A DNA stretch of 24,717 nt, from positions 1-24,717 of the IMG/VR virus record IMGVR_UViG_3300028025_002917; one strand, given 5' to 3'. Numbering within the stretch: position 1 is the stretch's first letter; each line of letters starts with the position of its first letter. Below the pieces are notes generated by a model. That model did no database searches. It worked only from the letters and a program-made list of their open reading frames with translations, and was not told the origin of the DNA. This document shows, piece by piece, positions 3,469 to 21,990 of this stretch. Source of the stretch: a virus. A program made the position numbers and the translations under genes.

Positions 3469-3909
3469 ATGAAGAATATTTTAATTGGTTTGTTTGTTTT
3501 TGCCGCTATTGGATTGACGGCTTTTGTAAACGACCGAAGCAAAACACTTGATGCAAATTATGATGATGCTTCAAGTACATTTTATAGCTATTCAGTAAGT
3601 GACACAATCACTAATACTGAAATAGACACTATTACTATTCCAGTAAGCTTGTTAAGCCCTTGGAGCGGTTATTGGTCGATTGTATCTACTAATTTGTCAG
3701 GCACTACTTATATTTTGCCTACTGTCTTACAAGCTGCAAGTTCAACCGATTATACAAGTGTTGCTACATTAGACACTTTAAACGTAAATGGTTTAGTGCA
3801 ATCTAATGAAGATGCTATAATTGGTGGTACAAAATATAGATTAGTGTTAACTGGTGTTGGTACTCAATCAACCAAATATACTGCCTACTTTGTAGCTAAA
3901 AACCCATAA
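3469..3909 (+). CDS. Unknown protein with N-terminal hydrophobic segment, next to capsid gene
   Basis: Family not recognised. The 146-aa product begins MKNILIGLFVFAAIGLTAF, a short positive end and a hydrophobic run of about 17 residues that looks like a signal peptide or membrane anchor. No clean Ala-X-Ala cleavage site is evident. The rest is rich in Thr, Ser, Val and Tyr and looks all-beta (for example SVSDTITNTEIDTITIPVSL and GTKYRLVLTGVGTQSTKYTA). This could be an immunoglobulin-like or jelly-roll surface domain. The position directly after the major capsid gene is where head decoration proteins are often encoded, which would fit, but a hydrophobic leader is odd for a capsid component. 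Ten bases of A-rich spacer precede the start. Confidence 0.7.
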   Translation: MKNILIGLFVFAAIGLTAFVNDRSKTLDANYDDASSTFYSYSVSDTITNTEIDTITIPVSLLSPWSGYWSIVSTNLSGTTYILPTVLQAASSTDYTSVATLDTLNVNGLVQSNEDAIIGGTKYRLVLTGVGTQSTKYTAYFVAKNP

Positions 3910-7348: not shown

Positions 7349-9451
7349 ATGGCAATAGGTAAACTACTTTTAAAGCTGGGTATTGATACCACTAATCTCG
7401 ATAAAGAATTAGGTAAGGTAGAAAAATCTATGACTAGGTTTGGACAAAATATGTCTAATCTTGGTTCAACTTTAACCCAGTCATTGACATTACCTATTAT
7501 TGGTGTAGGCGCGGCTGCTTTAAAATCTTTTGCGGATATGGAAAAGCTGCAAAACGGTTTAGTTGCTATTATGGGTAATAGTGAAGCTGCTGCGATTGAA
7601 TTAGAAAAACTACGAAAAGTTGCTGAGAATCCTGGTCTTGCTTTGCCTGAAGTGGTTAAGGCTTCGGCTACTTTACAATCTGTTGGAATGTCGGCTGATG
7701 TTGCTCGCGAAACCATAACTCAATTTGGTAATGCAGTTGCAAGGGCTGGAGAGGGTGCTGAAACTTTTGATGGTGTTATAGTTGCTTTAGGTCAAATAAG
7801 CGCGGTTGGTAAAGTTACGCAAGAAGATTTAAATCAAATTAAAGGCAGGCTTCCAGAGTTTGCCGATGTAATGAAAAATGAATTTGGCGTAGTAACAGCC
7901 GAAGCAATAAACAAAATGGGGCTTAGTGCGGAAGATTTTATAACAAGGTCGGTAAGTGCATTAGGTGAATTAGAAAGAGCAAAAGGAGGGCTTGGTAATG
8001 CTTTTGACAATTTAAAAGATAACGTTACAAATAGTCTTGCTGAACTTGGTAAAGTAATAAATACAAGTCTAAATGTTGAGGCTATTTTTTCAGCCTTATC
8101 AGACAAAATAAATTACTTGGTAGAAGGCTTTAAAAAATTGAATCCACAAACACAAAGTTTTATTATTTATACTGGTTTGGTTGTGGCTGCTATTGGGCCC
8201 GCTATATTTATAGTAGGTAAAATGATAACTACTTTTGGCGCATTAGCAGGCACAACAAAAATGATTATCGAGAATTTTAAAAAACTTAAAGGTGCTGTTA
8301 TAGGTGCATTTACTACTATTCTCGCTAATCCTGCTATTCTTGCGGTTGTGGCTGCCATTGCTGCCGTTGGTGCTATTGCTTTGTATGTTTACGATAACTG
8401 GGAGGCATTTTCAAGTAGGTTTCAAAATATATGGATTAACATAAAAAACAGTACCATGAAAGGCGTAGCTGATTTTATGAAAAACATAGATAAGCTACAA
8501 AAATTTTTAGGCATTGAATTGTTTGATGTTAGTGGTTTAACAAATTACACCGAACAACAAAAAGTAGTACAAAAAGAATTTAAAAGTATTGGTGAAACAG
8601 TTGATAGCCTTAAAGGTAAATTAAAAAGTTTATTTGTATCCGCTCCAAAAACAGGAGGCAAAACAGGCGGCATTGTGTCCGAGGATATAATAGAGCCAAC
8701 AAGTACACTCACGGGAGGTGGTGGTGGCGCTGTAACTACACAACCTAAAAATGAAACATTATCACCCACTAATTTACTGCCTACTATTGGTAAATTACCT
8801 GAACAATTAAGAAGTGTTACTGCTGAAACACAAAGAGCAAAAGAGGAGACAGATGCTTTTGCAATGGCTCAAAATGCAGCCGCTAAAGCGGTTCAATATA
8901 CAGATGAAAAAATCGCTGGATTAATAAAAATGAATAAAGAGTTAAGCGAAGGTTTAACTAATTTACTTAATGGAGTATTAACAGACGTTGCGACTGGTTT
9001 TGGCGAACAACTTGGCAATGCTTTTTCAGGTGCTAAATTTCAAGTAAAGGCGTTATTAATACCATTAGCGGATGCGATTATTCAGTTTGGTAAAATGGCT
9101 ATTCAGGCAGGTATAACCGCTCTTGCAATAAAAAAGGCTCTCACCTTGGCACAGGCTCCTCTTGCTATTGCGGCTGGTATTGCTTTAGTTGCGATTGGTA
9201 CTGCTATTAAAAATGGTATTGCTGCTCCAAAATTAGCGGAAGGTGGTTTGGCATACGGCCCAACTATGGCAATGGTTGGAGATAACAAATCCGCGCGAGT
9301 TGACCCGGAAGTTATAGCACCTTTATCTAAATTAAAATCAATGATGGGTGACATGGGAATGGGTGGAGGAGTATTAGAAACAAGGATAAGCGGAAATGAT
9401 TTGATTATATTGTTAAATCGTTCTCAAAAGACTTTAAACAGAGTACAATAA
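7349..9451 (+). CDS. Tail tape measure protein
   Basis: At 700 aa this sets tail length; by the usual rule of about 0.15 nm per residue, the tail would be near 105 nm. The N-terminus (about residues 1-200) is the conserved tape measure domain: IGVGAAALKSFADMEKLQNG, KVAENPGLALPEVVKASATL, ITQFGNAVARAGEG and KVTQEDLNQIKGRLPEFAD. Two hydrophobic stretches follow (about residues 270-295 and 325-350), then a Gly/Thr-rich linker with GGKTGGIVS and TGGGGGAV, and an Ala-rich helical part with further hydrophobic segments (about 585-630). The end has the frequent phage motif LAEGGLAYGPTMAMVGDN. The stop overlaps the next start as TAATG. Confidence 0.93.
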   Translation: MAIGKLLLKLGIDTTNLDKELGKVEKSMTRFGQNMSNLGSTLTQSLTLPIIGVGAAALKSFADMEKLQNGLVAIMGNSEAAAIELEKLRKVAENPGLALPEVVKASATLQSVGMSADVARETITQFGNAVARAGEGAETFDGVIVALGQISAVGKVTQEDLNQIKGRLPEFADVMKNEFGVVTAEAINKMGLSAEDFITRSVSALGELERAKGGLGNAFDNLKDNVTNSLAELGKVINTSLNVEAIFSALSDKINYLVEGFKKLNPQTQSFIIYTGLVVAAIGPAIFIVGKMITTFGALAGTTKMIIENFKKLKGAVIGAFTTILANPAILAVVAAIAAVGAIALYVYDNWEAFSSRFQNIWINIKNSTMKGVADFMKNIDKLQKFLGIELFDVSGLTNYTEQQKVVQKEFKSIGETVDSLKGKLKSLFVSAPKTGGKTGGIVSEDIIEPTSTLTGGGGGAVTTQPKNETLSPTNLLPTIGKLPEQLRSVTAETQRAKEETDAFAMAQNAAAKAVQYTDEKIAGLIKMNKELSEGLTNLLNGVLTDVATGFGEQLGNAFSGAKFQVKALLIPLADAIIQFGKMAIQAGITALAIKKALTLAQAPLAIAAGIALVAIGTAIKNGIAAPKLAEGGLAYGPTMAMVGDNKSARVDPEVIAPLSKLKSMMGDMGMGGGVLETRISGNDLIILLNRSQKTLNRVQ

Positions 9452-11673
9452 TGGCTGTAAGGTATCAAACAACGGTATATAATGAAAAAGGTAGAAAAAT
9501 TACTATATCAATAAAAGATACAGTTTTTTCAGGCTCCGTTGGAACTTTTGATACAATTAATGTTCAACTTCAATATGATAGCGAATCAAGTCAGGGAATG
9601 GAGCGTTTTGCTCCTATTATCGGATCTCGTTTAAGATTAAATTTGATTATAAATACAGAGCAATTACAAACACTACTTAATGACATAGGATTTGCGGTTG
9701 AGGGTAGATTTAGTATGGAGCTTACAAGTTATGAGGATGATAACACAACTGTGCTATTTAAATGGTATGGCTATATAGTTACAGATTTAGTAGAATTTGA
9801 AGACGTTACAACTGATATAGGATTTATTGCACAGATAGAAGCTGTTGACGGCTTAGCGTATTTAAAAACACTTCTTTATAAAAGTGAGGTTGGTCCTTAT
9901 TTAGGTCAAGATACAATCGTTCAACACATTTGTAATTGCCTTAATCAATTAGATTTTGTCCAGGAAAACTTAGTAGCTAATAATTTACCTATACTTCATA
10001 CCGTTTTTAATTGGCATGAAAATAGTATTAATTATTCGGCTGATAATGATTTTTCTTTAAGAACAGTAATTAATCATAGGGCTTTTTATCATAGAGATAC
10101 AAAAAATAATTATACTTATCAAAGTTGCTATGATGTTTTAAAAAAAATATGCCAGACTTTTGGCGCAAGATTATTATTTAGTGGTAATCAATATTGGTTT
10201 ATTCAAGTCAATGAATACCTTAATCCTAGTAATCATAGGTATTTTAAATATAATGGTTTTGGTATTCAAAGTTCTGGCACCTTTAATTTAGATTTTAGAA
10301 TTTTAAATCTTCAAACTGATTTGGCAAATAGTCAGTTAATGCGTTTAAGTGGAGGGAGGTGGTCGTATTATCCTCCGTTAAAAAATGTAGTTATACGTTA
10401 TAATTATTTTGGTAAACAAAATCTACTTGCAGGAAAAGAATATAGTTACGCAACCAATGCCACGCCTGAACAAGTTATTACACCTACATTAGATAGCACA
10501 AATGTAGAAGCAAGGTTAAGCTATACAGGCATATTAAATTTTTACGCTAGTGCATTAACGCCTGCTAATTTCGAGCCTTACCAATTTGTTTTTGCAATTA
10601 AATTAGCATCAATAGTTAATTCTTTTCCTTTACAAGGATTTACTTCCGCTAATTGGACATTGGGCAGTGGATGGCTTATTGATAATGCAATACTAGAAGG
10701 AACCTTAGTTGCAACGGAAGCCTATTACACTTCTTTTAGTGTTACGGCGAATAGAAAATATTACGTAAATATTAAGGTAAAACTAGAAAACACAGGTGAA
10801 TTAAGGTTGCGTTTAGGTGGAGTAACAAAAACAATAACCGAAACGGGAGATTATGAATATATTATTGAATCAACAAACACAGATACATTAAAATTAGATT
10901 CAATTTCTACGCCAAAATTTACGGGTAAAATAACTTCATTACAAGTAAAGCAGGAAAATAAATACCTAAAAAGGAATGTAGTATATACGTCTGGATTTAA
11001 TTTTCAATTGGATGCTGCAAGCTGGGAAACAACGGCTGCCGAATACGAATTTAACGTCGAAACAGTTTTTTCCGATAATGCTTTTGTTGTAAATAAAACC
11101 ATCTCATTTGACACTTTAGATATTCCAGACACTGCGGAGTATGTATGGTCAATGCGCTTAAAAGAAATGCGAAACGAAGCAGGTACAAATATTATAAGTA
11201 ATTACGCATTATCATATACGATAATGAATAATTATTTAGAATTTTTACCCGATGGAACAATAGGAGGACAAGCAGATATTCAGGAATATGGATCGGATAA
11301 CGATGAAAAATCATCTGTTATATTTGATTTAGATACCTATTTAGGCGATGGAATTTCAGCTACAACAAATGGAGCTTTAAAAGTAAAAGAGGATTCTGGC
11401 GCATTTAAATTAAGTAATACTTGGGATGTTGCAAACGGACAGGGATTTAATAAAGTGACACAGCTACTAGTTAACGAAGTAATTAAGGGACAATTAAGAC
11501 CTTTACCTAGAATGATTGATATGCCATTTCAAAATCTAAGCATTGACAATGTTTATTTGCCTCATAAAGTCATTGAGTATTCTGGAGGCTACTATATTTT
11601 TGAACGTGGTTTATTTGATTTAAATACCGATATTTGGAGAGGTGATTTTTTTAAAATAGATGACCATGCCTAG
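9451..11673 (+). CDS. Tail tip / baseplate hub-like protein with inserted carbohydrate-binding-like domain
   Basis: The 740-aa product follows the tape measure and takes the place of distal tail and hub proteins. The N-terminal 145 residues are beta-rich and carry FKWYGYIVTDLVEFED and IEAVDGLAYLKTLLY, a pattern seen in tail proteins of Bacteroidota phages. Residues about 220-255 (CYDVLKKICQTFGARLLFSG then NQYWFIQ) resemble a fold seen in hub proteins. Residues about 395-501 look like an independent jelly-roll, starting FTSANWTLGSGWLIDNAILE; the W-x-L-G-x-G-W motif with a later beta pattern (RKYYVNIKVKLENTGELRLR) resembles carbohydrate-binding modules of phage tails. The flanking sequence (FVFAIKLASIVN before, NVVYTSGFNFQLDAASWE after) appears to continue one beta-domain, so the module may be an insertion. 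The exact functional name is not certain. Confidence 0.72.
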   Translation: MAVRYQTTVYNEKGRKITISIKDTVFSGSVGTFDTINVQLQYDSESSQGMERFAPIIGSRLRLNLIINTEQLQTLLNDIGFAVEGRFSMELTSYEDDNTTVLFKWYGYIVTDLVEFEDVTTDIGFIAQIEAVDGLAYLKTLLYKSEVGPYLGQDTIVQHICNCLNQLDFVQENLVANNLPILHTVFNWHENSINYSADNDFSLRTVINHRAFYHRDTKNNYTYQSCYDVLKKICQTFGARLLFSGNQYWFIQVNEYLNPSNHRYFKYNGFGIQSSGTFNLDFRILNLQTDLANSQLMRLSGGRWSYYPPLKNVVIRYNYFGKQNLLAGKEYSYATNATPEQVITPTLDSTNVEARLSYTGILNFYASALTPANFEPYQFVFAIKLASIVNSFPLQGFTSANWTLGSGWLIDNAILEGTLVATEAYYTSFSVTANRKYYVNIKVKLENTGELRLRLGGVTKTITETGDYEYIIESTNTDTLKLDSISTPKFTGKITSLQVKQENKYLKRNVVYTSGFNFQLDAASWETTAAEYEFNVETVFSDNAFVVNKTISFDTLDIPDTAEYVWSMRLKEMRNEAGTNIISNYALSYTIMNNYLEFLPDGTIGGQADIQEYGSDNDEKSSVIFDLDTYLGDGISATTNGALKVKEDSGAFKLSNTWDVANGQGFNKVTQLLVNEVIKGQLRPLPRMIDMPFQNLSIDNVYLPHKVIEYSGGYYIFERGLFDLNTDIWRGDFFKIDDHA

Positions 11674-12037
11674 TTATACCGAAAGAGTAGTTATTTCAAA
11701 GCCTAGAGATTATCAATTAGTTGCAAATAACGCAGGTAGTGGTGGCGTGGTTAATAATAATGTAAATGAAAGTATTACAAATGTTACGGTAACTGGCTCT
11801 TTAATTTCTATATTTTCCGAAGAGTTTTTAAATACTTCATCTAATGTTTTGACGTACACTAAAAATAGTGGTGTTTTGCCAACTACAAATACAGATGCTT
11901 CAATTCAGGTTTATCAAAACGGACAAAAATTAATAGCATCTCAATACATCATTACACAGCCAGACACTATTACCATTGACAGTAATACTCATTACGATGG
12001 TTCAAATTACATTGTATTTGCAATAAACATAAACTAA
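11660..12037 (+). CDS. Small tail fibre-type protein sharing a module with the next gene
   Basis: The 125-aa product has no recognised family as a whole. Residues 1-50 are polar (VANNAGSGGVVNNNVNESIT). Residues about 52-125 form a module that recurs twice in the adjacent 1284-aa fibre: a Ser/Thr-rich strand with S-N-V-L-T-Y-T, then IQVYQNGQKLIASQYIIT and a final strand ending NYIVFAI. This suggests a common fibre or tail-surface building block. It overlaps the upstream gene by fourteen bases, and a second ATG at 11666 could be the start. The stop overlaps the next start as TAATG, so it is probably coupled to the long fibre gene and may act as its partner or adaptor. Confidence 0.72.
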   Translation: MTMPSYTERVVISKPRDYQLVANNAGSGGVVNNNVNESITNVTVTGSLISIFSEEFLNTSSNVLTYTKNSGVLPTTNTDASIQVYQNGQKLIASQYIITQPDTITIDSNTHYDGSNYIVFAININ

Positions 12038-15000
12038 TGGAAGAAATTAAGGCACCTAAAAAAGAAAGAAAGTTTTTAAAAGCCATTGGAAATATTGGTA
12101 AAGTTTTAGCAGAAGAGTTAGTTATGGGAATAGCAAGAAAATTTATCGGCAAAGCCATTGACAAAGTAGGAAATAAAAAACAAGGACTTGTTATTGCTTT
12201 TATTGTTTTGGCTTCATCATTTGTTTTTGCTCAATTTCCTACAAATACCAACAAACAAAGATTAGGTTTTCAAACTACGGCCGACGGTTTGGTTTGGCGT
12301 GGTTCAATCTCCGACACAGCATCTATTCAACCCGTATCAAACCAAAACGCATGGGTAATTCTTGATACCGTTAACCTAAAAATATACTCCTTTGATTTTA
12401 CTTCCAACGTTTGGAATCAAGTAGGCGGCGGTGCTTTTGCACAACCTATTGACTCATTATTTTTTAAAACAAGTGTTCCTCCAAACAATGTGGACACGGC
12501 TAAAATGCGATGGGATTCGGAATTAGGTACGGTAGTATTAGGTATGTATGATAAAGTGCCAAATGAACTTGGATTTAAAAACTTTTGGCTTGTTAAAAAT
12601 CAAACGGGTTCAACCATTACAAAAGGAAGTCTTGTATATGCTAATGGCACCGTTGGAGCAAGTGGAAGAATATCGGTATCAAAATTCATAGCAAACGGCA
12701 CAATAGATGCAAAGTATTTATTAGGAATAACGGCACATGATTTAAGCAACGGTGAAGACGGTTATGTCATTTCATTTGGCAAAATTAGACAAGTCAACAC
12801 TGATACTTTTCTGGCTGGGGCAATCCTTTACCCTTCGCCAACGGTGGCAGGTGTTTGGACGGACGTAGAACCTGTTGCACCAAATATTGATATGCCTATC
12901 GGCTTTTGTATTAATTCAAGTTCAAATAATGGTACAATTGCCATTCGTGTAGCATCTGGTTATAGTTTAAATGAATTGCATAACGTGGCTATTTCTTCGC
13001 CCGTTTCAAATGCCTCATTATATTATTCAGGTGGATTATGGAGAGATACAACGCCAACACTTTTAGTAAGTGATACGGCTTCAATGTTAGCCAACTATGC
13101 TACTAAAGCATACGCAGATACGAGTGGCAGATTTTACGCAAGGCAAGATTTTACTAATGTTTCTTCCTCAACTTTGACTTGGACACAAAGTGACACATTA
13201 GTAGTAGGTGGCGTAAATGTGGTGCAAGTTTACCGTAATGGACAAATACTTTTGCCAACTCAATACACAATACCAACTAATACTTCGGTTATAATTGGTG
13301 CAACTGCTTATAAAGTAGGTGAAAATTATACGGTGATTTTTCCCCGTGGTGGTGGCGGCGGTAGTGGAAGTGGCAGCGGATCACTTACCTCAATTTCTGG
13401 TGGTACGGGAATAATAGTCAATCCAAATCCTATCACAACCACAGGCACAGTGTCGGCTGATTTATCTGTTTTAATGGAGTTAACAGACACATCGTTATTA
13501 AATCTTACTACAAGATTTGCATCAAAATTAAATGCAGTGGACACGGCTTCATTATCTTCTAGGATAGATGCAAAAGGAACGGGTACTGTTACAAGTGTTG
13601 GTTCTGGTTTTGGTTTACTTGGTGGCACAATCACAACGACGGGAACTTTGCGTTTAGATACCACAATCTTATACGCAAGGCTACAAGATTCAATTAATAT
13701 AGCTATCGGGAATGATACCATAAAGATTTTAAAACAGGAATATCAACCAGCTTCATCAAGTGTTTTGACGTGGACGATAACGCCTAAATTTCCTATTCAA
13801 TTAAAGGCGTATATTTTGGTGTTCAGGAATGGGCAACTTTTGAACAATGACCAGTATAATTTAACGGACACAAATAAAATTACTATTGTTTCCACATCAT
13901 TTAAAATTGGTGCAAATTACACCGTAGCAACAGTTAGCGGTATTGGTTCAATAAATACAGGTGTGTTTCCAAATCCTATTTACCCCGACGCAGGCATAGC
14001 CTTGTCAACTGGTTCAACGTGGGCCTCATCTATTCCTAATAATTCAAGTAATTGGAATACGGCATTTACAGATAGATTAAAATGGGACGGAGGTAGCACT
14101 GATTTAGTGTCATCTACGGGGCGAACAAGCCTTGGAGGTACTACCATTGGACAATCAATGTTTACCTTAACAAATCCTTCGGCAATAACTTTTCCGAGGT
14201 TTAATGCAGATAACACTATTTCAGCTTTAACGTCTGCTAACTTTAGGAGTGCTATTGGTGCAGGTACTGTCACAACGGTAAATGCTTCAGCTACTTCGGG
14301 CAATCCAATTTCAATAGACAACAACACAACTACTCCAACCATAGAATTACTAAGTGCTACAAGTGCAAGAAATGGGTATTTAACTTCAAGCGATTGGACT
14401 ACATTTAATAACAAACAAGCCGCTTTAGGATTTACGCCAGCAAATAGCACAATCACCATAGGAACAAGCGCACCATTACAAGGTGGAGGCAATTTGACGG
14501 CTAATAGGACATTATCTATAACACAGGCAACAACCTCGGTAAATGGTTTTTTAACATCAACTGATTGGAATACCTTTAATAATAAAGTAAATATATCCGA
14601 TACGTCAACAATGCTATCACCGTATTTTCGAGATGCTGATACATCTTTATTAAATCTTACTTCAAGATTTGCGGCAAAACAAAATAATATTACATTAACC
14701 ACAACTGGAACAAGTGGATTAGCTACATTTAATGGCACTACTTTAAATATACCTAATTACACAGCATCGGGAGGCACCGGCACTGTAACAAGTGTAGGTT
14801 TAACCGCACCTTCTATATTTAACGTAAATGGCTCACCCGTTACAACAAACGGAACTTTAGCCCTTAGTTATAGTGGTACTGCTTTACCTTTATTGAACGG
14901 TGGCACAGGCGCAACAACGGCCGACGGGGCATTGACAAATTTAGGCGCAACGGCTCAAGGAAAATTATTGTTTGGGATTACAAATACCGTATCTGATAAA

Positions 15001-15891
15001 TTTATTAAAGTTAATACAGATAACACAATTAGCCTTTTAAATGCAGCTGATACCAGAACGGCTATTGGGGCAGGAACGGGAACAGTAACAAGTGTAAGTG
15101 GAGTATTACCAATTTCAGTATCTACAGGAACAACTACACCTGTTATAAGCATAGCAGATGCGTCAGTTGCAACGGCAGGCGTAATGACTACAAATGCACA
15201 AGGATTTATTGGTGATAAACAATTTTATAGCCCAGTTACTTTTTGGGATATAGCTTTTTTTAAAAATTACACCTATCAGGCGACAAGATTAGCAGGACTA
15301 TCTTCTACAGATAGATTTGCTACAGTTACATTAGGTAGTGGTTTATCTTTATCAGGTGGCATATTAAGCGCAACAAGTGGAGGCGTTACAAGTGTTACAG
15401 CATCTACTCCTCTTTCATCTACAGGAGGTGCTACGCCTAATATTACCATTGCAGATGCTGGAGCAAGTGCATCGGGCGTAGTAAATACAACTACTCAAAG
15501 TTTTGCAGGAAATAAAACATTTACGGGCACTTTAAACGTTTCATCTACAGGAACCTTTGGAGGCAGGGTAAATACTCCATGGCTTGAAAGAACATACACA
15601 TCATCTACGGCAACATCATTGACAGTTAGCGTAAATACAACATGGTTAAACATACATCAAGATGCTACCGTTACACTTACATTGCCAAATGCAGCTACCT
15701 ATCCTGGCAAAGAATTAATTATTAAACAAACAGGCAGCGGAAATGTATTATCTGCATCCTCAAATATAATTGGTTTTACAACTGCATTTAATGGTTCAAC
15801 ACAAACATCAATTATAGCTCCTGCTACTTATAGATTTGCAACACTTGTAAGCGATGGAACAAATTGGATTATTATGCAAAGAAATAATTAA
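12037..15891 (+). CDS. Large modular tail fibre-type protein with internal signal-anchor-like segment
   Basis: The 1284-aa product is built from modules. Residues 1-48 are charged and amphipathic. Residues 50-65 (LVIAFIVLASSFVFA) are hydrophobic and end in A-Q, like a Bacteroidota signal peptide. Residues about 66-130 carry the TTADGLVWRG module shared with the gene at 15902. Residues about 155-320 form a beta-domain (TKGSLVYANG, LLGITAHDLSNG). Two copies of the VYRNGQ/VFRNGQ module lie at about 371-437 and 568-635. A Gly/Ser linker (GGGGGSGSGSGS) follows the first. The second half holds repeats of fibre type: GTVTSVG, LLNGGTGATT, GFLTSTDWNTFNNK and DTSLLNLTTRFA. The C-terminal 95 residues are a compact beta-domain (VTLTLPNAATYPGKELIIKQ). 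No catalytic motif is evident. Trimeric receptor-binding or side fibre is the best guess. Confidence 0.8.
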   Translation: MEEIKAPKKERKFLKAIGNIGKVLAEELVMGIARKFIGKAIDKVGNKKQGLVIAFIVLASSFVFAQFPTNTNKQRLGFQTTADGLVWRGSISDTASIQPVSNQNAWVILDTVNLKIYSFDFTSNVWNQVGGGAFAQPIDSLFFKTSVPPNNVDTAKMRWDSELGTVVLGMYDKVPNELGFKNFWLVKNQTGSTITKGSLVYANGTVGASGRISVSKFIANGTIDAKYLLGITAHDLSNGEDGYVISFGKIRQVNTDTFLAGAILYPSPTVAGVWTDVEPVAPNIDMPIGFCINSSSNNGTIAIRVASGYSLNELHNVAISSPVSNASLYYSGGLWRDTTPTLLVSDTASMLANYATKAYADTSGRFYARQDFTNVSSSTLTWTQSDTLVVGGVNVVQVYRNGQILLPTQYTIPTNTSVIIGATAYKVGENYTVIFPRGGGGGSGSGSGSLTSISGGTGIIVNPNPITTTGTVSADLSVLMELTDTSLLNLTTRFASKLNAVDTASLSSRIDAKGTGTVTSVGSGFGLLGGTITTTGTLRLDTTILYARLQDSINIAIGNDTIKILKQEYQPASSSVLTWTITPKFPIQLKAYILVFRNGQLLNNDQYNLTDTNKITIVSTSFKIGANYTVATVSGIGSINTGVFPNPIYPDAGIALSTGSTWASSIPNNSSNWNTAFTDRLKWDGGSTDLVSSTGRTSLGGTTIGQSMFTLTNPSAITFPRFNADNTISALTSANFRSAIGAGTVTTVNASATSGNPISIDNNTTTPTIELLSATSARNGYLTSSDWTTFNNKQAALGFTPANSTITIGTSAPLQGGGNLTANRTLSITQATTSVNGFLTSTDWNTFNNKVNISDTSTMLSPYFRDADTSLLNLTSRFAAKQNNITLTTTGTSGLATFNGTTLNIPNYTASGGTGTVTSVGLTAPSIFNVNGSPVTTNGTLALSYSGTALPLLNGGTGATTADGALTNLGATAQGKLLFGITNTVSDKFIKVNTDNTISLLNAADTRTAIGAGTGTVTSVSGVLPISVSTGTTTPVISIADASVATAGVMTTNAQGFIGDKQFYSPVTFWDIAFFKNYTYQATRLAGLSSTDRFATVTLGSGLSLSGGILSATSGGVTSVTASTPLSSTGGATPNITIADAGASASGVVNTTTQSFAGNKTFTGTLNVSSTGTFGGRVNTPWLERTYTSSTATSLTVSVNTTWLNIHQDATVTLTLPNAATYPGKELIIKQTGSGNVLSASSNIIGFTTAFNGSTQTSIIAPATYRFATLVSDGTNWIIMQRNN
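13147..13941 (+). repeat. Two copies of a fibre module (VxRNGQ type) within the large fibre gene
   Basis: Copy A is at 13147-13350 (residues 371-437) and copy B at 13738-13941 (residues 568-635). Both follow the pattern SSS-x-L-T-W-T, about 20 residues, V-[YF]-R-N-G-Q-x-L, Q-Y, then I and G-x-N-Y-T-V. A third copy forms most of the gene at 11660-12037. The copies are diverged at the DNA level, so the duplication is old or the modules were exchanged. Confidence 0.75.
13495..13520 (+). repeat. Near-identical 26-base repeat, copy 1 (copy 2 at 14647-14672)
   Basis: Twenty-five of 26 bases match between 13495-13520 and 14647-14672, which encode LLNLTTRFA and LLNLTSRFA. This is much closer than the surrounding fibre repeats and suggests a recent duplication or gene conversion inside the fibre gene. 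Confidence 0.8.
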
Positions 15892-15901
15892 AAACATAAA
15901 C

Positions 15902-17035
15902 ATGAAACAACTCCTTCCCCTTTTCCTCTTCCTTTTGCCTTGCATTGCATTGGCACAGTATCCGAGCAATGGTAACCAAAAAATAACGCTCGGAGAACAG
16001 AGTACTGCCGATGGACTTATTTGGCGAGGTGTGGCAGCAACTGATACAGTAAGAAAGCCTTCCATTGATACCATGGCTTACATGGTTCTTGATACCACTA
16101 CAAATATAATATGGCACTATAAAAAGGCAACAAGTAACGCGTGGTTGCGTTTAAACCTTTTGCCGAGCGACACGGCTTCGATGCTGACACCGTATTGGAG
16201 GGCAGGTAGATTTAGTGGTGTTTTACCTGTAGCAAATGGGGGAACAAATACATCAACTGCCTTTACTGCTGGTTCAGTTATTTTTGCTGGAAGTGGTGGT
16301 ACATACACTCAAGACAATTCAGGTTTATTTTGGGATAATACAAATAATAGATTAGGTGTAAATAAAAGTAATCCTGATTGGACTTTTCAAGTAAATAGTG
16401 ATTTGGTACTACCTTTTTATATTAGCTCAACAGCTGATGCAACTATATTGGGAATAAATAACAATAATTCTGGAGATGGCGATCCGCAATTTAAATTTTA
16501 TTTGAATGAGATTGGTAAATATTCTTTTGGTGTAGATGATAGTGATAATGATAAATTTAAAATAGGAACAACTGATTTATCTACAGACACAAGAATCACA
16601 ATAGATGGAAGTAATATTGGTATTAACACTCAATCGCCAAATACAGCCCTCCACGTTGTTGGCAACGGCAGATTTACGGGAGTTGGCGCTGGTACATTTT
16701 CAAATAATTTAAATATAACATCTGATGGCACTTTAACAACAGCAACATCTGATATAAAATTTAAATACAATATAAGACCTTTAAATTATGGTTTAGAAAC
16801 ATTATTGCAATTAAAGCCTGTTAATTTTCAATGGATAGAAGGTGAAGAAGAAGATTTAGGTTTTATTGCTCAAGACGTTGCAGAAATAATACCAGAAGCT
16901 GTAAACACAAATTGGAATAGCGATTTATTAATGAGATATGAATCCATTATTCCTATCCTCACCAAAGCCATTCAGGAACAACAAGCCCTCATCAAAGCCC
17001 TTGAACAAAGAATTATTAACCTCGAAAATAAATAA
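15902..17035 (+). CDS. Secreted-type fibre protein with C-terminal peptidase S74 chaperone domain
   Basis: The start chosen is the ATG at 15902, ten bases after the previous stop; an earlier in-frame ATG at 15854 lies inside that gene and would spoil the signal peptide. The 377-aa product begins MKQLLPLFLFLLPCIALAQY, a clear Sec signal peptide with likely cleavage after Ala18. Residues 19-80 repeat the STADGLIWRG module of the large fibre. A fibre motif LPVANGGTNTSTA follows, then beta-rich sequence. The C-terminus (about 283-377) is an S74 intramolecular chaperone: Ser283 and Lys288 in SDIKFKYNI fit the catalytic dyad, followed by LKPVNFQW, GFIAQDVAEIIPEAV and a final coiled coil. Such domains fold trimeric fibres and then cut themselves off before the Ser. 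A signal peptide on such a protein is unusual. Confidence 0.83.
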   Translation: MKQLLPLFLFLLPCIALAQYPSNGNQKITLGEQSTADGLIWRGVAATDTVRKPSIDTMAYMVLDTTTNIIWHYKKATSNAWLRLNLLPSDTASMLTPYWRAGRFSGVLPVANGGTNTSTAFTAGSVIFAGSGGTYTQDNSGLFWDNTNNRLGVNKSNPDWTFQVNSDLVLPFYISSTADATILGINNNNSGDGDPQFKFYLNEIGKYSFGVDDSDNDKFKIGTTDLSTDTRITIDGSNIGINTQSPNTALHVVGNGRFTGVGAGTFSNNLNITSDGTLTTATSDIKFKYNIRPLNYGLETLLQLKPVNFQWIEGEEEDLGFIAQDVAEIIPEAVNTNWNSDLLMRYESIIPILTKAIQEQQALIKALEQRIINLENK

Positions 17036-17036
17036 A

Positions 17037-17633
17037 ATGAGATACCTATTTTTATTCCTTCCCTTGTTTTCATTTGCGCAAGACGTTGTCAAAGACACCG
17101 TTTACATACAAAAGCAAGGAAACATTTATTACATTATTCAGCAAACTACTTTGTCGGATAGCACCGTCACAGGCTCAAAGCAAATATTGGGCGATTCTGC
17201 AACTGCCATTCAAAGCCTTGTTACAGATGCTGAAAGGCAAAGTAACACGATTGCCATTCATGCAAAGCCTATTATCACAAAGGGTAAAGCCGTGCAAAGG
17301 ATTAATTATTACAATGATTTGCACCAACAAATAAGCAACAAGCCTGTCTATTTTACAACGGCACAAAGGGACACGGCAAAGTTTTTGGGAGACTGGAGGC
17401 TAAATTTTAACGGGGAAATTATTGATGGAGTTATTGAGTTAAATGTAAATAAGCGTTTAATTTTCAATCCTGATAATGGCAAAGTGTACACAATTTCAAC
17501 CAACTTGCTTTTAGCTACATTTACTAATCAAATATCCTTTACATTTAACTCCGTAAAATACGACTTGTATAAATACGCTGATGGTAAATTTGCAACCGTT
17601 GACGGTAATGTTAGGCTAATAAAAATTGAATAA
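17037..17633 (+). CDS. Small secreted protein of unknown function upstream of the holin
   Basis: The start chosen is the ATG at 17037, two bases after the previous stop; an upstream in-frame ATG at 16938 lies inside that gene. The 198-aa product starts MRYLFLFLPLFSFAQDVV, a typical signal peptide with likely cleavage after Ala14. The mature part has a helical stretch (about residues 35-100), then a C-terminal beta-domain with FLGDWRLNFNGEIIDGVIEL and a repeat of strands to the end. No family is recognised. It could be a fibre accessory, a periplasmic lysis helper, or a surface protein acting on the infected cell. Its location between the S74 fibre and the holin does not decide between these. 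Confidence 0.7.
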   Translation: MRYLFLFLPLFSFAQDVVKDTVYIQKQGNIYYIIQQTTLSDSTVTGSKQILGDSATAIQSLVTDAERQSNTIAIHAKPIITKGKAVQRINYYNDLHQQISNKPVYFTTAQRDTAKFLGDWRLNFNGEIIDGVIELNVNKRLIFNPDNGKVYTISTNLLLATFTNQISFTFNSVKYDLYKYADGKFATVDGNVRLIKIE

Positions 17634-18037
17634 TGAAAGCAACCTTAATCAACCTTTTGCATCTTGGATGGGAAAAGATAACGTATGCCATTTGTTGCGG
17701 ATGGATATTTAGCTTTTTTGTTCCTATAAAGGGATTTTTAATATTTACCGTATTTGTTGTTTTTGCTGACATGGCAACGGGAATTATTGCGGCAAAGAAG
17801 GAGGGGCAAAAGATAAATAGTCGTGGACTTTATCGTACCATAGAAAAAATAGTGGTATATTTTTGTGCTATCCTTATTTTCGAAGGTGCAAGAAATACTT
17901 TTAGCCTTCCTTTCAACATTACGTACATGTCAGCGTTTTTAATTGCGACGGTGGAGTTATATTCCATTTCAGAAAATACAAAACGTATAACAGGCGTAAA
18001 TCTTGGCGTTTTAATCACACGTTTTTTTAATCGTTAA
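17633..18037 (+). CDS. Phage holin family protein
   Basis: The 134-aa product has hydrophobic segments at about residues 28-50, 72-86 and 96-110. The pattern is that of the phage_holin_4_1 type family: WIFSFFVPIKGFLIFTVFVV, then the conserved DMATGIIAAKKEGQKINSRG loop, then the helix EKIVVYFCAILIFEGA. Holins form lesions in the inner membrane and time lysis. The gene starts with a TAATG overlap with its upstream neighbour and is close to the amidase gene, so the lysis cassette lies at the end of the late operon. Confidence 0.87.
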   Translation: MKATLINLLHLGWEKITYAICCGWIFSFFVPIKGFLIFTVFVVFADMATGIIAAKKEGQKINSRGLYRTIEKIVVYFCAILIFEGARNTFSLPFNITYMSAFLIATVELYSISENTKRITGVNLGVLITRFFNR

Positions 18038-18416: not shown

Positions 18417-19082
18417 ATGAATAAAAATGAATTTTGTATTTTCTTAGATGCTGGTCACGGAGGTATTAATCCTAAGGTAAAATTACCTAATGGTTATACT
18501 ACCTATCCTGCTAAATGTGCGCAACACAATAATAGCACGTTTCATTCTTACGGATGGTTTTTTGAGGGTGTTTTTAACCGGGCAGTTGTGCAATATATTG
18601 AACAATATTTAAATGACTGGGGCTTTGTAACAATGAAAGTTTATGATGAAATACTAGACACATCATTAGGCAAAAGAGTAAATAAGGCAAACTTTGCGGC
18701 TAAAAATTATAAAGCATCTTTGTATTTAAGCATTCACGGTAATGCAGCAGAAAATAAAAGTGCTAGAGGATGGGAGGTGTTTACATCACCAGGACAAACC
18801 AAATCAGATATTTATGCAGAATTTTTATTTAAGGAAGTAAAATTAAAATTTCCAAATTGGATTTTTAGGCCTGATACAACCGACGGGGATCACGATAAAG
18901 AAGCTAAATTTCATGTTTTAACGCAAACAAATATGCCTTCGGTTTTGTCTGAAAATGGTTTTTTTACCAACTATCACGATGCTAAATTAATGTTTGATAC
19001 AGAGTTTCAAAATAAAATAGCTTTGTGTCACGCTAGAGCTGTTTTTGAATACGCAACAAAAATAGGTTTAGTAAATTTTTAA
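18417..19082 (+). CDS. N-acetylmuramoyl-L-alanine amidase (amidase_3), endolysin
   Basis: This enzyme cuts the bond between N-acetylmuramic acid and L-Ala in peptidoglycan. The 221-aa product is a single catalytic domain with the zinc ligands in place: His14 in LDAGHGG, Glu50 in FFEGVFN and His107 in LSIHGNAA, with the catalytic Glu179 in LSENGFFTN. There is no signal peptide and no added cell-wall-binding domain, so it would depend on the upstream holin to reach the periplasm. It is the last plus-strand gene; the minus-strand genes converge on it from the right. Confidence 0.92.
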   Translation: MNKNEFCIFLDAGHGGINPKVKLPNGYTTYPAKCAQHNNSTFHSYGWFFEGVFNRAVVQYIEQYLNDWGFVTMKVYDEILDTSLGKRVNKANFAAKNYKASLYLSIHGNAAENKSARGWEVFTSPGQTKSDIYAEFLFKEVKLKFPNWIFRPDTTDGDHDKEAKFHVLTQTNMPSVLSENGFFTNYHDAKLMFDTEFQNKIALCHARAVFEYATKIGLVNF

Positions 19083-21144: not shown

Positions 21145-21990
21145 TTAAAATTGATTGTAATCTTTCTTTAAAGGGAAATTATCCCGTTTAATTTGCCAGT
21201 ATTCAGCCATTAATGACGCTCTAAATTTGTAATCTGTATCGGTATGGTATCCTGATTTATATACGCATTTACAAATAGATTCATATAGCTTTATCCCTTT
21301 CATCCTGTAATTTGCCTTTTTACAGGCAGCATATCTTCCAGAATTTAAAACACCAGCCCATAACTCCATGCCTTGTTCTGTTGATTCTGCTTTCATGAAT
21401 TTAGCTCTAATAAACTTGTTTTTACCTCTAATTACTTCGCGTGTTTTGTAAGTCACATGATCGTGACCTTTCAATGCCTTAACCCCTCCAGCATTAGCGT
21501 GTTTACGCCAAAGTTCTGTTTCAACTCCTTGCGAGGTTGCCTCAATGATAAAGAAGGAATAAATCATTGATACAGGGAAATCGGTTAAAACGTGTACGTT
21601 CATTAGCATTGATTCATAGCAATAAGCAAGGTATATGCGACGTAATTTAGACCTGTCAACTCCTTTTAAATTCCTAAAGCCTCTACCTTCCAATGTTTGC
21701 CTTAACTGTTCACCGGATAACTTGCGCACCTCCCAGCCGTATGAGCGAGATCCGTAGGCGCTTTCATCAACTTCTTTTTTTTCGTCCTTACCTTGAATAG
21801 TTAACGACGTAATTTTGTGAACGTAAACCGTATCCCTTTGAATTAAAGGAACAAAGGAAGTATAATTGTATTGGGTATTTATTGGGGAATAAATCAACCC
21901 AATAACAAAAGCAACACCTAAGCCAGCAGCTACCTGATAAGGCAGCCTTTTATTTTGTGGGACGTATGTCTCAATTATTGGCTCTTTCAT
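21145..21990 (-). CDS. Membrane-anchored glucosaminidase / lysozyme-fold protein
   Basis: The 281-aa product has a short cytoplasmic start, one hydrophobic segment (about residues 20-35, VAAGLGVAFVIGLIY), a spacer, and from about residue 130 a domain resembling GH73 endo-N-acetylglucosaminidases. FIIEATSQGVETELWRKHAN with AGGVKAL fits the usual catalytic helix (Glu150), followed by the N-x-x-G-x-K loop. TREVIRGKN fits the T-x-E-x-x-x-G strand, with Glu185. A final helix region follows. It should act in the periplasm on peptidoglycan glycan strands. It is on the minus strand, away from the holin and amidase, and so is probably expressed at another time. It starts one base inside the stop of the upstream gene. 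The family call is by motif only. Confidence 0.7.
   Translation of the reverse strand: MKEPIIETYVPQNKRLPYQVAAGLGVAFVIGLIYSPINTQYNYTSFVPLIQRDTVYVHKITSLTIQGKDEKKEVDESAYGSRSYGWEVRKLSGEQLRQTLEGRGFRNLKGVDRSKLRRIYLAYCYESMLMNVHVLTDFPVSMIYSFFIIEATSQGVETELWRKHANAGGVKALKGHDHVTYKTREVIRGKNKFIRAKFMKAESTEQGMELWAGVLNSGRYAACKKANYRMKGIKLYESICKCVYKSGYHTDTDYKFRASLMAEYWQIKRDNFPLKKDYNQF

Follow-up and report, generated by a model that had tools for sequence, protein, structure and literature searches.

Putative Sec-dependent export of tail fibres in an uncultured siphophage with a predicted Bacteroidota host

Three consecutive genes of an uncultured freshwater siphophage, two encoding tail fibres (fibre 1 and fibre 2) and one a small protein (gene 3), start with leaders of the Sec/signal peptidase I type that end directly before a glutamine, namely VFA↓Q in fibre 1, ALA↓Q in fibre 2 and SFA↓Q in gene 3 (arrows mark the predicted cleavage sites). 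In textbook tailed phages fibre assembly takes place in the cytoplasm. The features of the leaders and their upkeep among relatives strongly support a predicted export of all three products, and we regard it as slightly more probable than the opposite that the fibres are exported by Sec, cleaved at the N-terminus with which they would dock on the virion, wait in the periplasm and dock at or after lysis. A preliminary description of the sequence had spoken of leaders on three neighbouring genes, two of them with fibre-type products; the leaders are indeed present on all three at the positions given, and gene 3 is not a fibre.

The window, by which we mean the whole analyzed stretch of 24.7 kb, encodes portal, protease, capsid, adaptors, tape measure and hub followed by the fibre region (Table 1), with several of the gene names being assigned by gene order. 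No near relative of the window was found in the phage collection searched. The best match of the tape measure is Cellulophaga phage phi39:1 (28%, E 8e-27) and the sole match of the hub protein is Flavobacterium phage 11b; because of these matches and the leaders exposing Gln, a Bacteroidota host is predicted for the window phage. Fibre 1, fibre 2 and gene 3 are located 3' of the tail hub and 5' of the lysis genes, and the order in phi39:1 is identical. Several further products of the window deserve mention in their own right. The last ~70 residues of the protein encoded directly upstream of fibre 1 contain a repeat (..VYQNGQKL..YII..) which by eye resembles the interior of fibre 1 (..VYRNGQIL..YTI..). 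A protein encoded directly 3' of the capsid gene (3469-3909), found in 68 viral loci, starts with a hydrophobic stretch that is conserved (MKNILIGLFVFAAIGLTAFV/KNDRSK), with no Gln at a cleavage site, and may be a fourth product that is exported or tethered to a membrane. Far from the amidase, on the minus strand, a 281-aa protein with a single N-terminal membrane segment (21145-21990) is perhaps a membrane-anchored wall hydrolase.

Table 1. Coordinates of the tail, fibre and lysis features of the window.
Feature	Position	Strand	Remarks
Tape measure	start 7349		
Hub protein	9451-11673		Without leader
Leaderless 125-aa protein	11660..12037	+	Directly upstream of fibre 1; no leader in scan
Fibre 1, 1284 aa	12037..15891	+	ORF; constant N-terminal part, hypervariable C-terminal end
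Fibre 1 residues 1-50	12037..12186	+	Conserved basic amphipathic N-region; PKKER and FLK invariant in alignment
Fibre 1 residues 51-65, hydrophobic core and cleavage region LVIAFIVLASSFVFA, before Gln66	12187..12231	+	97 unique homologous leaders
Fibre 1 mature N-domain, from Gln66	12232..12435	+	Homologous to fibre 2 N-domain
Fibre 2, 377 aa	15902..17035	+	Leader and C-terminal S74 chaperone
Fibre 2 signal peptide MKQLLPLFLFLLPCIALA, before Gln19	15902..15955	+	46/46 unique homologous leaders A↓Q
Fibre 2 mature N-domain	15956..16159	+	Common to fibre 1
Peptidase S74 intramolecular chaperone, fibre 2 residues 283-334	16748..16903	+	Pfam PF13884, E 1.5e-15
Gene 3, 198 aa, small predicted exported protein, not a fibre	17037..17633	+	Adjoins holin
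Gene 3 signal peptide MRYLFLFLPLFSFA, before Gln15	17037..17078	+	Gln invariant in homologues
Holin	17633..18037	+	Pfam PF05105, E 2.4e-10; begins lysis module
Amidase endolysin	18417..19082	+	Pfam PF01520, E 6.3e-27; no leader in scan

All three leaders have the Sec/signal peptidase I form, with a basic N-region, an uncharged hydrophobic core and small residues at positions -3 and -1, the -3 residue being mostly A or S, and L or V in some forms of fibre 1. The +1 residue is Gln in each of the three window genes, following the Q-rule: on average 71% of the predicted signal peptidase I substrates of Bacteroidota have a +1 Gln, which is then cyclised (PMC5837995). In a simple leader scan of our own, 2.7% of composition shuffles scored as leader-like and 0.18% as leader plus Gln, corresponding to ~0.06 leader-plus-Gln genes expected among the 32 genes of the window against three observed, which are adjacent; fibre 1 is counted here only when starting from the internal Met30, as the scan missed it from its annotated start and also missed gp25 of phi39:1 (read by eye). 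The earlier argument that a repeat in three neighbours speaks against chance is thus borne out by the shuffles. The leader of fibre 1 is unusually long (65 residues) and its N-region contains the amphipathic and basic motif PKKER(K/R)FLK. This long N-region is real and not due to a wrongly assigned start, because the start codon overlaps the stop of the preceding gene (TAATG) and similarity among the relatives of fibre 1 starts exactly at the annotated Met. Large autotransporters are known to have extended signal peptides (ESPR), in which the hydrophobic core follows a long basic N-region. Fibre 1 resembles them in layout, as a large fibrous protein with such an N-region, and unlike them it has no autotransporter barrel. 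No C-terminal sorting domain of type IX secretion was present among Pfam and NCBIfam matches up to E 1, and a lipoprotein Cys at +1 is absent, this position being Gln or Ser. Gene 3 gave no Pfam or NCBIfam match above the cut-off, and its structure model (pLDDT 68) no significant fold match; the model of the fibre-1 N-domain reached a pLDDT of 44, and no relative of the window N-domain was found among solved structures.

Scans of viral contigs yielded several hundred loci with homologues, in which the leaders are retained almost throughout. A hydrophobic leader precedes the fibre N-domain in 293 of the 299 ORFs bearing this domain; in five of the six exceptions a contig end has removed the readable 5' region, and the remaining one starts inside the domain. 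For gene 3, the leader is found in all intact homologues and the Gln is kept down to 24% identity. The preliminary description had held that homologues without a hydrophobic segment would weaken the idea of export; every intact homologue found keeps its leader. The +1 Gln is not universal among the homologues of fibre 1, for which 56 of the unique leaders have Gln and the remainder Ser, 41 being of the form SYA↓SIDSIPYP. The hydrophobic core of fibre 1 contains one polar residue in 1067 positions, compared to 31% polar residues in mature positions. Since core and cleavage site persist despite changes at individual residues, the alignments indicate that the leaders are not fossils, and that they are maintained for a function rather than decaying. 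The N-region of fibre 1 was also considered as a free-standing module and this was rejected, as it was never seen without a leader in the fetched loci: in all 58 distinct sequences it is followed by the hydrophobic segment and the cleavage site. A start codon conserved directly after the cleavage site, from which a leaderless form could be made, was not present among the homologues. One relative of fibre 1 (57%) is encoded on a contig labelled as an Actinomycetales MAG (NBNH01000018.1), which is probably a mis-binned phage contig.

The assignment of fibre 1 and fibre 2 as tail fibres is based on their position, on a constant N-terminal part combined with a variable tip and, for fibre 2, on the S74 chaperone. 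The mean identity of fibre 1 to its relatives is 61-87% over residues 1-780, 40-48% over residues 781-1020 and 8-33% thereafter, and in fibre 2 the mean distance is 0.25 for leader and N-domain and 0.75 for the middle. The mature N-domains of both fibres share 38% identity over 68 aa (E 4e-8). Because the N-terminal end is conserved next to the cleavage site and the C-terminal end is variable, the former is likely the virion-docking end and the latter the receptor end. A role of gene 3 as a fibre-specific chaperone was also considered, as its variation tracks that of the fibre-2 tip (r 0.76), and was rejected; the two genes are adjacent, so that linkage alone could explain the covariation.

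Leaders of the same kind are found in cultured phages. In the Cellulophaga phages phi39:1, phi10:1 and phi19:1, ten leader-bearing proteins of the adhesion module, nine of them with a +1 Gln, are listed as virion proteins on the basis of MS/MS, a status taken from the record notes and not from spectra, with vesicle contamination of virion preparations being possible. The source of these proteomic data is reportedly a PNAS paper. In phi39:1, gp25 (EMAA↓Q, by eye) and gp26 (SYG↓Q) occupy the position of the window fibres and carry the MS/MS virion note; in phi10:1, gp91-gp95 all have leaders before Gln, with the note on gp91-94; in phi19:1, gp101-104 have both leader and note, with gp104 predicted to be cleaved before Lys instead of Gln. 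In phi13:2, leaders are present on gp84, gp86 and gp87, and gp84 is annotated as structural by similarity. Among the proteins of head, tube and tape measure that were examined in these Cellulophaga phages, none has a leader. As in the window, the Q-rule leaders of phi39:1, phi10:1 and phi19:1 are located on consecutive genes in fibre position, between the tail hub and the lysis genes, but the fibre bodies have no detectable relation to those of the window, and a profile comparison of the window N-domain with the fibre N-termini of phi18:1 and phi39:1 revealed no similarity. Over the leader and the first 42 residues, gp94 of phi10:1 is 93% identical to gp87 of phi13:2 while the bodies differ, and the body of phi13:2 gp87 is 66% identical to phi39:1 gp26, which has a different leader. 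As phi10:1 and phi19:1 belong to the Assiduviridae and phi13:2 to the Pachyviridae, leader modules travel between unrelated phages. The annotation of the Cellulophaga records makes no mention of leaders, nor was a mention of them found in the literature searched.

Such leaders are not a general property of phage fibres. Eight other Bacteroidota phages (phi18:1, phi38:1, P12024S, P2559S, 11b, P12002L, B40-8 and Colly_1) have no leader on their fibres or on proteins in fibre position, so that a fibre can do without export. Leaders are likewise missing from baseplate-region proteins of FCL-2, tail proteins of 6H and the fibres of five phages whose hosts belong to other phyla. A small protein of 6H (8153-8707) has a leader visible by eye (MFS↓Q). 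Other tail fibres share with fibre 2 the C-terminal S74 (endosialidase chaperone) domain; unlike those of the window, the S74 and other fibres of Synechococcus, Thermus, Klebsiella, Methylophilales, E. coli and Maribacter phages are leaderless. Virion proteins that pass Sec with cleaved signal peptides are known from filamentous phages of the M13 type, their coat proteins being the example. Virions of that type assemble in the membrane, whereas the window phage is tailed and encodes head proteins, a tape measure, a holin and an endolysin.

According to the reading we favour, fibre 1, fibre 2 and gene 3 would be made with cleavable signal peptides and would cross the inner membrane via host Sec, with residues 1-50 of fibre 1 predicted to stay in the cytoplasm. 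Signal peptidase I would cut the leaders, and the exposed Gln, where present, would be converted to pyroglutamate. This cut would generate the mature fibre N-terminus, which is conserved and probably attaches to the tail, with receptor binding left to the hypervariable tip at the C-terminus. Heads and tails would assemble in the cytoplasm while the fibres wait in the periplasm, and the fibres would join the virions once holin and endolysin open the cell. Export and cleavage in the window phage are read from knowledge of Sec and the Q-rule, and we infer periplasmic waiting and docking at lysis. Given that neither a type IX sorting domain nor a lipoprotein Cys is present, the fibres should be retained behind the outer membrane until lysis, and Pfam and NCBIfam scans revealed no route across it. 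It speaks against this reading that a fibre of 1284 aa would be awkward to accommodate in the narrow periplasm, as do the leaderless fibres of the eight other Bacteroidota phages and the unusual length of the fibre-1 leader. The periplasmic pool may possibly exert a side role, such as receptor occupation or surface digestion. O-glycosylation was considered as a general reason for export, using the Bacteroidota motif D(S/T)-hydrophobic (PMC12871550), and was rejected, the motif being enriched in the window fibres and depleted in the leader proteins of the Cellulophaga phages. The hub protein contains eight such motifs compared to 2.5 in shuffles.

Alternative readings differ mainly in where the leader-bearing proteins end up. 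Targeting might be inefficient, with a cytoplasmic pool joining virions with the leader still attached and an exported pool acting in the envelope, for example in receptor occupation (superinfection exclusion) or in digestion of surface polysaccharides before release. This would account for a conserved leader together with virion presence in relatives, and the pectate-lyase bodies in Cellulophaga phages would find their substrates outside the cell. We nevertheless judge it unlikely, as a conserved internal start for a leaderless form is missing, the leader would precede the conserved docking end, and a virion pool would not need the strict upkeep of cleavage site and Gln. Less probable still is that the proteins are exported only, as secreted adhesins or decoys, the MS/MS identifications in Cellulophaga phages then reflecting co-purified periplasmic or vesicle material. 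The leaders by themselves would direct the proteins to the periplasm, phages of Porphyromonas gingivalis encode Q-rule proteins whose function is unknown (PMC10367356), and the virion content of the window phage is predicted from its genes. The position 3' of the tail hub, the S74 chaperone and the constant N-part with hypervariable tip argue for virion fibres instead, as do the ten annotated virion parts of the three cultured phages; moreover, the tail module of the window offers no second fibre candidate of similar size besides the leader-bearing genes, and no outer-membrane crossing route was found. The earlier suggestion that the proteins are secreted to coat the host or to catch other phages therefore holds with respect to export and is disfavoured as their sole role by the MS/MS annotation of the Cellulophaga proteins.

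Two further options of the preliminary description fare worse. Uncleaved hydrophobic segments that stay in the virion and help the tail to cross or fuse with the host membrane at entry would fit the conserved amphipathic basic stretch before the hydrophobic part of fibre 1, as a membrane-active peptide might have, but are quite improbable: small -3/-1 residues and the Bacteroidota-specific +1 Gln are conserved across leaders of different sequence, the signal peptides of fibre 2 and gene 3 are short and plain, and gene 3 bears the same type of leader without being a fibre. The leaders as functionless fossils of capture from host surface proteins are the most improbable reading, even though the pectate-lyase bodies of Cellulophaga phages look like host-type enzymes and gp26 shows sub-threshold similarity to a carbohydrate-binding domain. 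All homologues retain the core and the cleavage site, polar residues are nearly absent from the core of fibre 1 compared to its mature part, and leaders have been swapped between unrelated phages, where they are retained and reused with different bodies.

Signal peptides on tail-fibre virion proteins were not reported in the part of the literature covered by our search. Phage-encoded Q-rule proteins are already known from P. gingivalis phages (Nixviridae) and, like the window leaders, have Bacteroidota-type signal peptides exposing Gln, but they are not described as tail fibres or virion proteins (PMC10367356). We tentatively propose, with somewhat less confidence than we place in the docking mechanism itself, that virions are completed outside the cytoplasm in a class of tailed phages of Bacteroidota, with fibres that are exported and matured by host Sec, signal peptidase I and glutaminyl cyclase and dock on finished particles at or after lysis, and with leader modules exchanged between unrelated families. 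The proposal would be relevant to the expression and study of such fibres, since the leader would be part of their maturation pathway. Should the fibres of abundant Bacteroidota phages prove to be Sec substrates, virion assembly would partly depend on host secretion, the docking of fibres would be tied to lysis, and fibres in virions should bear pyroglutamate and perhaps host O-glycans.
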